From Humibacter albus DSM 18994 (lineage in GTDB: Bacteria > Actinomycetota > Actinomycetes > Actinomycetales > Microbacteriaceae), in NCBI RefSeq assembly GCF_000421825.1, contig NZ_ATXT01000015.1, forward strand, positions 186,001 through 250,000: a stretch of 64,000 bases of DNA, written 5' to 3'. This document shows, piece after piece, positions 5,295 through 8,549 of this stretch; the first letter of the stretch is position 1; every line of letters begins with the position of its first letter. Made by a program: the position numbers and the translations under genes. A model generated the notes under the pieces. It did not search any database, was not told where the DNA came from, and saw nothing but the letters and a program-made list of their open reading frames with translations.

Positions 5295-6842
5295 CTACTC
5301 CCATTCGATGGTCGCCGGCGGCTTCGACGTCACGTCGAGTACCACGCGGTTCACGCCTTCGACCTCGTTGGTGATGCGGTTCGAGATGCGCGCGAGCACG
5401 TCGTACGGCAGGCGCGTCCAGTCCGCGGTCATGGCATCCTCTGAGCTGACCGGACGCAGCACGATCGGATGCCCGTACGTGCGTCCGTCGCCCTGCACGC
5501 CGACCGAGTGCACGTCGGCCAGCAGCACGACCGGGCACTGCCAGATCTCGCCGTCGAGTCTGGCGGCGGTGAGCTCGTGGCGGGCGATGGCATCCGCCTG
5601 GCGAAGCAGCTCGAGGCGCTCGCGCGTCACCTCGCCGATGATCCGGATGCCCAGTCCGGGACCCGGGAACGGCTGCCGAGAGACGATGACCTCCGGCAGC
5701 CCGAGCTCGCGACCCACGGCCCGCACCTCGTCCTTGAAGAGGGTGCGCAGTGGCTCAACGAGCTCGAAGTTCAGGTCTTCGGGGAGGCCGCCCACGTTGT
5801 GGTGGCTCTTGATGTTCGCCGTGCCGGATCCGCCGCCGGACTCCACCACATCGGGGTAGAGCGTGCCCTGCACGAGGAAGCGGATCGGGTCGCCCTCTTC
5901 GGCCGCCTCGGCGATGAGGTCGGCCTGGGCGCGCTCGAAGGTGCGGATGAACTCGCGCCCGATGATCTTGCGCTTCTCCTCCGGGTCGGTGACGCCCGCG
6001 AGCGCGGTGAGGAAGACATCCGATGCGTCGATGGTCACCAGCCGAACACCCGTCGAGGCGACGTAGTCCTGCTCCACCTGCGCGCGCTCGTCTTGGCGCA
6101 GCAGGCCGTGGTCCACGAACACGCAGATCAGCTGGTCACCGACCGCTTTGTGCACGAGCGCCGCCGCGACCGCCGAGTCGACGCCGCCCGAGAGACCGCA
6201 GATGACGCGGCCCGTGCCGACCTGGGCGCGGATCGCGGCGACCTGCTGCTCGATGACATTCTCGCTGTTCCAGTCCGCCGGGATGCCCGCGGCCCGGTGC
6301 AAGAAGTTCTCCAGCACCGCCTGCCCGTACGCCGAGTGCTTCACCTCGGGGTGCCACTGCACGCCGTAGAGCCGCCGCTCGTCGTTCGCGAACGCCGCCA
6401 CCGGGGTCGAGGCGGTGGAGGCCAGCACGTCGAAGCCCGCGGGCGCCTTCGTCACCGAGTCGCCGTGGCTCATCCAGGCGGTCTGCTCCGCGGGCTGCTC
6501 GGTCAGCAGGCTGCCCGCTTCACCGATGCGCACGGCGGTCGAGCCGTACTCGCGCGCGCCCGTCTTCGATACCTCGCCGCCGAGCGCGTTCGCCATCATC
6601 TGGAAGCCGTAGCAGATGCCCAACGTGGGCACGCCGAGATCGAAGATGGCGGGGTCGAACGCGGGGGCGCCCTCTTCGTACACGCTCGACGGTCCGCCGG
6701 AGAGCACGATGCCGGCCGGCTGCTTGGCCGCGACCTCGGCCGCCGTGATGGTGTGCGGCACGATCTCCGAGTAGACGGATGCCTCGCGCACCCGCCGCGC
6801 GATCAGTTGCGCGTACTGCGCACCGAAGTCGACGACAAGCAC
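5295..6842 (-). CDS. guaA: GMP synthase (glutamine-hydrolysing)
   Basis: Converts XMP to GMP using glutamine and ATP. The N-terminal amidotransferase domain has the nucleophile Cys in [10 protein letters not shown] and the His/Glu pair in [10 protein letters not shown]. The ATP-pyrophosphatase domain has [12 protein letters not shown], and the C-terminal dimerisation domain ends [17 protein letters not shown]. The given start is the first conventional codon, a GTG, but it falls on the Val of the conserved [19 protein letters not shown] strand. The frame stays open 52 codons further upstream to an ATT at 6996-6998, six bases after a GGAGG Shine-Dalgarno and overlapping the stop of the preceding gene. 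That upstream part carries four in-frame 24-bp repeats. I suspect translation begins at the ATT (567 residues). Confidence 0.95.
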
Positions 6843-6870
6843 GGGGTGCTCGCCCGCCCGCTGCGCGTCT

Positions 6871-6966
6871 GTGCTCCCTGAGCGAGCATCGCGAGTGCTC
6901 CCTGAGCGAGCATCGCGAGTGCTCCCTGAGCGAGCATCGCGAGTGCTCCCTGAGCGAGCATCGCGA
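6871..6966. repeat. four tandem 24-bp repeats at the 5' end of guaA
   Basis: Four identical 24-base units begin at 6871, 6895, 6919 and 6943. The plus-strand unit reads GTGCTCCCTGAGCGAGCATC followed by GCGA. The outermost copy runs on into GTCGAAGGG, giving a 28-base imperfect palindrome that starts CCCTGAGCGAGC and ends AGTCGAAGGG; from memory this resembles dispersed repeats of Microbacteriaceae. Because 24 is a multiple of three, the units stay in the guaA frame on the minus strand and would encode DARSGSTR each time. Confidence 0.95.
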
Positions 6967-6993
6967 GTCGAAGGGCCGGTGCTGGTCTGCTCG

Positions 6994-7524
6994 CTAATGG
7001 GATGCCTCCACCGGGCGCTCGGGGGTTGTCACGGGGTTCTCGGCGAGGAAGCGGTGCACCTGCCGCGAGATGAAGTGCTCGACGATGAACGACATGAACG
7101 GCACGACGCCGCCGAGCGCGATCTGCACGAACTTCGTGAACGACATGCGCATGAGTGACCACAGGCGGAAGTCGGCGATCAGGTAGAGCACGTACAGCCA
7201 TCCGTGAGCGATGAGGATGCCCGTGGAGACATCGACGCCGCCGATCGAGCTCTCGCCGCCGTCATACGGCACGAAGGAGAGGAAGCCCTGCCCCGGGGCG
7301 AACGCATACAGCGAGTAGCCGACGCCGTACTTCACGATCATCTCCGCCACGAGCAGCAGCAGCATCACACCCGTGATGTACGCGGTGACCTGATAGAAGC
7401 GCAGCGAACCGGGAATCTTCGGGATGTCCACCGTGCGCGGGCGGGCCGAGTTCGCAGACCGCAACTGCTCGATCGTGCGCTGAAGAAGGCTGCCGCCGTC
7501 CGGGTTCTGAGGGGGATTCGGCAT
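6994..7524 (-). CDS. DUF3817 family membrane protein
   Basis: The 176-residue product has an N-terminal soluble part of about 40 residues and then four membrane segments. Typical DUF3817 features are [21 protein letters not shown], an [16 protein letters not shown] segment and a C-terminal helix with [12 protein letters not shown]. The function of the family is unknown. Its location directly upstream of guaA fits actinobacterial gene order. Its TAG stop overlaps the candidate ATT start of guaA, and the GGAGG that would serve guaA lies inside its last codons, which suggests translational coupling. Confidence 0.88.
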
Positions 7525-7529
7525 GTCGT

Positions 7530-8549
7530 TCAGTCTACTTCGCGGCCCTGTGACGACTCGCCGGGAGCCGAGCTGCCGCCATCCTCCGCGACGGCCCCAC
7601 GATCGTTCGGGACGCGCTCAACTTCGCCCGGCTCGCCCACCGCTTCGCCACCGTCGACCGACTCCCCCGCCCACTCGGCGATCGCACGCTCGTACTCGGC
7701 CTCGGCGTCTTCGTGGGTCTTCTCCCAGGCATCCTTGACCACGCGGTACCAGAGGAACAGCGCGAAGCCGGCGAAGATCGCCCACTCGGCGGCGTAGAAG
7801 ATGTTCAGCCAGTCGACCGTCGCCTTCTCGCTCGGCGGCGGTGAATAGATCTTCGTCAGCCCGGCGGGCGGCGTTCCGTGTTCCACGACGTAGGAGCTGT
7901 AGATGTCGGAGTCGCCGATGCCATGCCAGCGGTTCACGAGCGACGCGACCGACATCTCCTTCATCACGAAGGGATCGCCACCGGCTGCCGGCGCGGACGG
8001 CGCCTCGGAGGGCAGCAGTCGCCCCGTGAGCGTCACAGTCGCGGACTGCTGCGCCTGAAGAGCGGCGATTGCCCGCTCGGCCTTCGCCTTCGTCGGCGCC
8101 CAGCCCCGTGCGACGGCCAATTGCGCCGTGTTGCCCTTCTTGTCGGGCTCACTCGGCGTGAAACGGGTGACCACCCAGTACCCGGTGGCCCCGTCGTTCA
8201 GCCGGCCGGTGAGCAGGCTGTAGTCCTTCTGCGAGAACGTGCCCGTCGCGCGCACGAGCTGGCCCTCTCCCGCCGTCGTCGGTGCGGAGTTCACTGTCGC
8301 GACCTGGTTCAGCGGCTTCACCGTCTCAGTCGGGGTGTTCACGACGGTTCCCGATCGCACGGCGCGTTCCAGCTGCCACTGCCCGAGCGCAGCGAACGCG
8401 GCGGCGATGGCGAGCGCGAGCACCAGCGCGGCGATCCACTTGGGGCGCACCATGGTGCGCAGGAGTGATTCGGTACGCGGCGGCGCGGGCTTCGCCGCGG
8501 GAGTGGTTTCGGTGGTGATCTCAGTTCTGCTTTCGTGTGTCCGAGTCAT
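7530..8549 (-). CDS. SURF1 family cytochrome oxidase biogenesis protein
   Basis: The 339-residue protein has the SURF1 layout: an N-terminal membrane helix (WIAALVLALAIAAAFAALGQWQLERA, with the GxWQxxR-type signature), a large extracytoplasmic domain with GYWVVTRFTP and LAVARGWAP, and a second helix (IFYAAEWAIFAGFALFLWY). SURF1 proteins help assemble haem a into the cytochrome c oxidase aa3 type. The C-terminal 60 residues are acidic and disordered, longer than in minimal family members. I chose the ATG at 8549, which overlaps the upstream antiporter gene by 29 bases, over more upstream in-frame starts. Confidence 0.9.
   Translation of the reverse strand: MTRTHESRTEITTETTPAAKPAPPRTESLLRTMVRPKWIAALVLALAIAAAFAALGQWQLERAVRSGTVVNTPTETVKPLNQVATVNSAPTTAGEGQLVRATGTFSQKDYSLLTGRLNDGATGYWVVTRFTPSEPDKKGNTAQLAVARGWAPTKAKAERAIAALQAQQSATVTLTGRLLPSEAPSAPAAGGDPFVMKEMSVASLVNRWHGIGDSDIYSSYVVEHGTPPAGLTKIYSPPPSEKATVDWLNIFYAAEWAIFAGFALFLWYRVVKDAWEKTHEDAEAEYERAIAEWAGESVDGGEAVGEPGEVERVPNDRGAVAEDGGSSAPGESSQGREVD

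Follow-up and report, generated by a model that had tools for sequence, protein, structure and literature searches.

Experimentally characterised non-canonical start codons are few in bacteria (PMC5472188), and AUU in particular is very rare, as among some 66,000 reconstructed ancestral AUG/GUG starts there was one AUG-to-AUU and one GUG-to-AUU switch (PMC5622118). The described cases include infC, which starts with ATT in Escherichia coli and with ATC in Streptomyces, and Streptomyces sigR with a GTC start; such non-canonical starts are reported to be repressed by IF3 (PMC5472188). Additional IF3 lowers initiation at non-canonical codons and also re-initiation where no Shine-Dalgarno sequence (SD) precedes (PMC2268962). 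In Staphylococcus aureus, the AUU start of cvfC1 and the AUA start of ccpN, both with Ribo-Ret and luciferase support, have extended SDs and an output of about 10% of that of AUG, which for ccpN rises up to 30% in rich medium (PMC13009471). The pcnB gene of E. coli is likewise AUU-started and has been described as translationally limited. A related gene arrangement is that of the ATGA/TGATG pairs with termination-reinitiation, where the stop and the start overlap and coupled translation is expected (PMC6728339, PMC10666635).

The gene considered here is guaA (GMP synthase) of Humibacter albus DSM 18994, located in a 64,000-nucleotide stretch of contig NZ_ATXT01000015.1 (hereafter, the window). 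Judging from sequence comparison, guaA is translated from AUU both in this window and in a large part of the family Microbacteriaceae, with an estimated probability of about 0.92. As with infC (PMC5472188), its AUU/AUC start is conserved, although guaA differs from infC by encoding a nucleotide-synthesis enzyme with no self-feedback evident and by a start which overlaps the upstream stop. Like sigR, it is an actinobacterial gene with a non-canonical start of a kind overlooked by genome annotation, albeit the start of sigR was shown by experiment, is a GTC codon and belongs to a stress sigma factor (PMC5472188). By this analogy, guaA is a candidate for the same IF3 repression; yet its fit to the IF3-repressed genes infC and sigR appears to concern the codon class only. 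With cvfC1 and ccpN, it shares a strong SD and conservation within a bacterial group, whereas a stop overlap is not mentioned for the S. aureus pair in the accessible part of that report (PMC13009471). The pair formed by guaA and the preceding DUF3817 gene resembles the ATGA/TGATG pairs in its stop-start overlap, but the overlap is of 1 nt with the start coming first (ATTAG), a phase which cannot be filled by ATG, GTG or TTG. No paper on an AUU start of guaA was found among the matches listed for the open-access literature, which does not prove that none exists. The features of the locus are as follows:

5295..6998, minus strand: guaA (GMP synthase), 567 sense codons from ATT plus the stop; NF000848, E 8.9e-232; frame open
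6996..6998, minus strand: proposed ATT start codon of guaA; ATT in 58/155 and ATC in 6/155 family genomes, in frame in 56/56 ATTA[AG] overlaps
7005..7009, minus strand: Shine-Dalgarno GGAGG, six-base spacer to ATT, read from the sequence
6994..7524, minus strand: DUF3817 gene (PF12823); its stop TAG 6996-6994 has one base in common with the guaA ATT
6843..6995, minus strand: variable GuaA N-terminal leader after the start codon, according to leader length range and frame retention among genomes
6871..6968, minus strand: 24-bp x 4.1 tandem repeat in the GuaA leader (DARSGSTR units), not in G001, G002, G003 and G004; a similar element is present elsewhere in the genome
6840..6842, minus strand: GTG, first usual start codon of guaA; without an SD of at least 4 letters at 4-11 bases and not conserved

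The minus strand at 7011-6989 reads GTGGAGGCATCCCATTAGCGAGC and contains GGAGG, ATT and TAG, with the third base of ATT 6998-6996 serving as the first base of the DUF3817 stop. This confirms the six-base spacer and the overlap claimed in the original prediction, as well as its statement that the guaA frame is open upstream of GTG 6842: the nearest upstream stop in this frame is 64 codons away from the LVVDFG motif, and GTG 6842 is the sole ATG, GTG or TTG between the two. The NF000848 profile starts at residue 53 of the ATT-started product, and the upstream ORF matched PF12823 in a profile search with an E value of 5.7e-18. Taken alone, the motif GGAGG-N5..7-ATTA[AG] is neither rarer nor commoner than chance in the 3.69 Mb genome, with 3 sites against 2 for the reversed control pattern. 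The two other sites precede ORFs of just 12 and 42 codons, so that no further AUU start of the same pattern was found in this genome. The weight of the ATT case therefore comes from conservation among relatives and not from the motif count. An Rfam search of 6600-7700 gave no match at the gathering score, and a known RNA element at the junction was rejected.

The main survey covered the guaA upstream regions of 150 family genomes, one per species, with 5 more genomes added later (155 in total); a start was called where a start codon with an SD lay near the DUF3817 stop. The calls in the 150 genomes were ATT in 57, ATC in 6, GTG in 44, ATG in 18 and TTG in 3, with 22 uncalled by the rule. Among the added genomes, G002 from the window's genus had ATT and the remaining four had usual codons. 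Overall, 64 of the 155 genomes (58 ATT and 6 ATC) have the codon, which is conserved among relatives, although these genomes are related by descent and the counts are not independent. The window's genus had ATT in 5/5 genomes read, and 33 of the 74 genera in the 150 had at least one ATT/ATC genome, 31 being wholly ATT/ATC and 2 mixed. The recurrence of the same site, SD and overlap strongly supports the start at ATT 6998-6996 that had been predicted from the window. The start-stop overlap between DUF3817 and guaA is conserved as ATTA[AG] in 56 and as NTGA in 66 of the 150 genomes (GTG 46, ATG 17, TTG 3). In five of the others the start was ATC and the stop lay 5 nt on; in two it lay 10 nt on, with one ATT and one ATC; 15 had other overlap types and 6 no upstream DUF3817 match. 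All 87 genomes not called ATT/ATC had a usual in-frame start at most 75 codons from the motif, so guaA can in principle do without AUU.

Several individual loci deserve mention. The codon call is ambiguous in G099 and G156, where an ATC next to the ATT has better spacing; the SD match of G088 is a weak GGTG only, and in G106 an ATTGA at the DUF3817 stop is out of frame with guaA and TTG fits as the start. In other families of the order, a usual in-frame guaA start was present in 20/20 readable genomes, while in G043 an ATC accompanied by an SD-like match is also present 41 codons upstream. Among 80 named loci, in some of which the motif was not found, an ATT six bases after GGAGG was present in five: Microbacterium sp. 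STN6, Corynebacterium-like bacterium B27, Ruicaihuangia caeni, a Homoserinimonas MAG and Amnibacterium flavum. Contig C1 of G128 gave three guaA matches of equal score (168-1709, 3157406-3158947 and 3159309-3160850), which lie towards the two ends of the contig and occupy both strands; this may be due to an assembly duplication or an inverted repeat. Two contigs labelled Stenotrophomonas maltophilia P13 (L029) and Proteobacteria MAG (L053) carry guaA 79% and 76% identical to that of the window, and the labels probably reflect contamination or mislabelling.

The infC gene of the same family is a good reference for non-canonical starts in Microbacteriaceae (loci L246-L275). Of the 30 genomes read, 21 belong to the guaA ATT/ATC class and 9 have usual guaA starts; infC starts with ATC in 27 of them and with ATT in 3, its second codon being AGC or ACC, and the sequence AT[CT]-AGC or ACC-GAT-CCC was present in 30/30. 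At several of these loci the nearest in-frame stop is just 2-6 codons upstream, without a usual start in between. As infC of the family reads ATC or ATT, with ATC being also the codon reported for Streptomyces, discrimination of the IF3 type is probably at work in Microbacteriaceae as well.

One indication of initiation at ATT/ATC comes from the genomes that offer nothing else. In 20 of the 63 ATT/ATC genomes of the main survey, and in G002 (21/64), no ATG, GTG or TTG occurs anywhere in the open guaA frame, which runs from the nearest upstream in-frame stop to the catalytic motif; two of the five genomes of the window's genus (G002 and G004) belong here. The window differs from these 21 in that GTG 6842 is formally possible as a usual start. 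That guaA starts at this GTG, or at other internal usual starts in the relatives, with the upstream frame open by chance, is nevertheless very improbable. Its product, beginning with MLVVDFGAQ, does cover the GMP synthase profile, and GTG stands at the same codon in 16 of the 63 ATT/ATC genomes, i.e., in the window and 15 others, including the same-genus G001 and G003; however, GTG 6842 has no SD, and G002 and G004 have GTT there with no usual start in frame. The original prediction had raised relatives starting exactly at GTG 6842, and such a start is not borne out, although the GTG itself does recur in two of the four. A usual start lies between ATT/ATC and the motif in 23/63 genomes, while 40/63 have none. 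Moreover, all 56 ATTA[AG] overlaps are in frame with guaA over 21 distinct distances to the motif (25-208 nt), which speaks for a translated leader, as an untranslated one would not be expected to hold the frame. The 56 leader differences in 9 close genome pairs fall 18/11/27 on codon positions 1/2/3, which suggests a modest coding signal. GTG 6842 as the main start was thus rejected on the missing SD, poor conservation and frame retention; it may still give a second, shorter GuaA product in the window, which would span the whole GMP synthase profile.

Even less credible is the absence of any guaA start, where ribosomes would instead shift frame by +1 at the DUF3817 terminus and produce a DUF3817-GuaA fusion. 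The overlapping frames, the stop and the SD-like GGAGG just upstream would suit such an event, but the frame relation of the two genes differs among genomes (ATT 2 nt and usual starts 1 nt before the stop, with G064/G182 different again), so that no single shift serves all of them, and the fusion was rejected on this ground. The six-base SD spacer suits initiation, and re-pairing from CAU to AUU is poor by pairing rules. A sequencing error at base 6996 (ATG read as ATT), which the original prediction had wished to exclude, has a negligible chance, being contradicted by the same codon in 5/5 genomes of the genus and in many others of the family.

Initiation at AUU/AUC, the preferred reading, also agrees with the detailed composition of the site. 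The DUF3817 codon covering the AT of the start was NAT in 61/61 (CAT 54, GAT 3, AAT 3, TAT 1), despite T-ending codons making up only 10, 17, 8.5 and 10.5% of the His, Asp, Asn and Tyr codons of the same guaA genes; hence, the bases rather than the DUF3817 residue seem to be kept. The base after the ATT/ATC start was A in 63/63, and the second codon was AGC in 51/63. Leaders of the ATT/ATC class, such as ISEQATNARPV, are similar to the ones present in relatives with GTG, e.g., MSETAARPV (L108). In G111 (L177), G143 (L125) and G170 (L134), a usual start with an SD-like match of at least 4 letters, weakest in G170, lies in the leader downstream of ATT; these three are possible escapes from the AUU start.

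The geometry of the overlap differs between the two start classes. Called usual starts lie mostly 1 nt before the DUF3817 stop (NTGA, 4-nt overlap) with an SD spacer of seven bases at 42/65, in comparison with 2 nt before the stop (1-nt overlap, start first) in the ATTA[AG] type and a spacer of six bases at 56/63 ATT/ATC starts. GGAGG was present at 56/63 ATT/ATC starts versus 31/59 of the called usual starts which precede this stop by 1 nt, an enrichment which looks as if the strong SD compensated for the weak codon. In the ATTA[AG] type, the start codon ends on the first letter of the DUF3817 stop and has to end in T; ATT is the near-cognate codon that satisfies this. A change from ATT to ATG would abolish this stop, so the poor codon can persist; beyond it, the DUF3817 frame stays open for a median of 89.5 codons in 56 genomes, and for 158 codons in the window. 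With the AUU start accepted, these features favor the view that the codon persists as a neutral relic, held in place by the overlapping stop and serving no regulatory purpose, which has a substantial chance of being right, albeit somewhat below one half. Against it, five genomes with the stop 5 nt on have kept ATC, and G064/G182, whose stop is in another frame and 10 nt on, have kept ATT/ATC; these include genus g66, with ATC in 3/3 species read. These cases are few, yet they lie outside the overlap constraint and keep the codon, so the constraint is not the whole story.

For guaA started at AUU, the following course of events is proposed. Ribosomes ending DUF3817 translation at UAG would be positioned next to GGAGG and would start again at the AUU, which contributes its final U to that stop codon, so that the two genes would be translationally coupled. 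The initiator fMet-tRNA would read AUU, and the weakness of this codon would be offset by the strong and exactly spaced SD. In this manner, GuaA would be made in modest amounts, depending on IF3 and on the translation of DUF3817. Coupling of guaA to DUF3817 translation is likely, given the overlap. Sensitivity of the AUU start to IF3 is somewhat more probable than its absence, by analogy with the described genes, and by the same analogy the output from AUU should be modest. We only tentatively suggest, and consider rather unlikely, that guaA and infC form an IF3-controlled set in Microbacteriaceae, in which AUU/AUC would be kept by selection, tying the supply of GMP and hence GTP to IF3 and initiation capacity, with the ATTAG overlap as a family-wide evolutionary lock on the weak codon.

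The leader downstream of the start is variable. Its length, from the start codon to the residue before LVVDFG, ranged from 9 to 70 codons in 63 genomes; in the window it is 53 codons, as compared to 22, 22, 14 and 28 in the same-genus G001, G003, G004 and G002, which are without the array. The predicted in-frame 24-bp repeat was confirmed at 6871-6968 as 4.1 copies with 100% matches, and it is private to the window's genome among the genus genomes read. The repeat unit corresponds to the 3' portion of a dispersed element, CCCTTCGACTCGC..GCTCGCTCAGGGAGCA. A 311-base query over the junction gave 26 matches in the genome at E <= 0.001, self included; by the pattern used, the element occurs within the window only in guaA. 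A dispersed palindrome of the CCTTCGACTCGCTTCGCTCGCTCAGGGAGCA type, whose 3' part is locally expanded in tandem, was observed at L002-L005 (G000:C17:147265-147374, C13:499957-500045, C17:39720-39805 and C13:115374-115433), with L002 having a 21-bp version in about four copies. The earlier idea that a dispersed palindrome entered the 5' end of guaA and expanded there is supported by the four same-genus relatives without it and by its tandemly expanded kin elsewhere in the genome. Other species have in-frame leader repeats of their own: STEQSN in L140 (G142), AGSAQ in L118 (G092) and SET/SES units in L090 (G012). The GuaA leader therefore looks like a tolerant, expansion-prone linker, and the N-terminus is probably disordered. 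The 24-bp array is supported as a separate in-frame insertion of the dispersed palindrome into this leader. The repeat and the ATT appear to be unrelated, the ATT being common across genera and the repeat private to the window's genome, with no link seen between them. The region 6840-7020 folds stably as RNA (z -2.8, 1/200 shuffles as good), but a role of this fold in initiation was rejected, as its stems belong largely to the palindromic repeats missing from the same-genus relatives.

In a quick GuaA tree, the division into ATT/ATC and the rest needs at least 16 changes, of which the starred branches force only 4. The tree is based on a single protein and a quick search, with 52/152 inner branches open, and no claim is therefore made on one ATT origin with frequent losses versus repeated origins.

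By the sequences compared, the guaA AUU case exceeds the scope of the original prediction, being shared by many relatives within one family instead of a one-off. The non-canonical cases encountered are mostly regulators, while here a core metabolic enzyme carries such a start in 33/74 genera read. Gene callers limited to ATG, GTG and TTG cannot place the ATT start, and the guaA N-termini of the ATT/ATC genomes are probably mis-annotated. The GTG, ATG and TTG relatives with the same gene order are natural controls, which makes it directly testable whether weak starts are selected or merely trapped. GMP synthase makes a building block of RNA and DNA, and for the organisms of this family the AUU start may affect the amount of this enzyme made.
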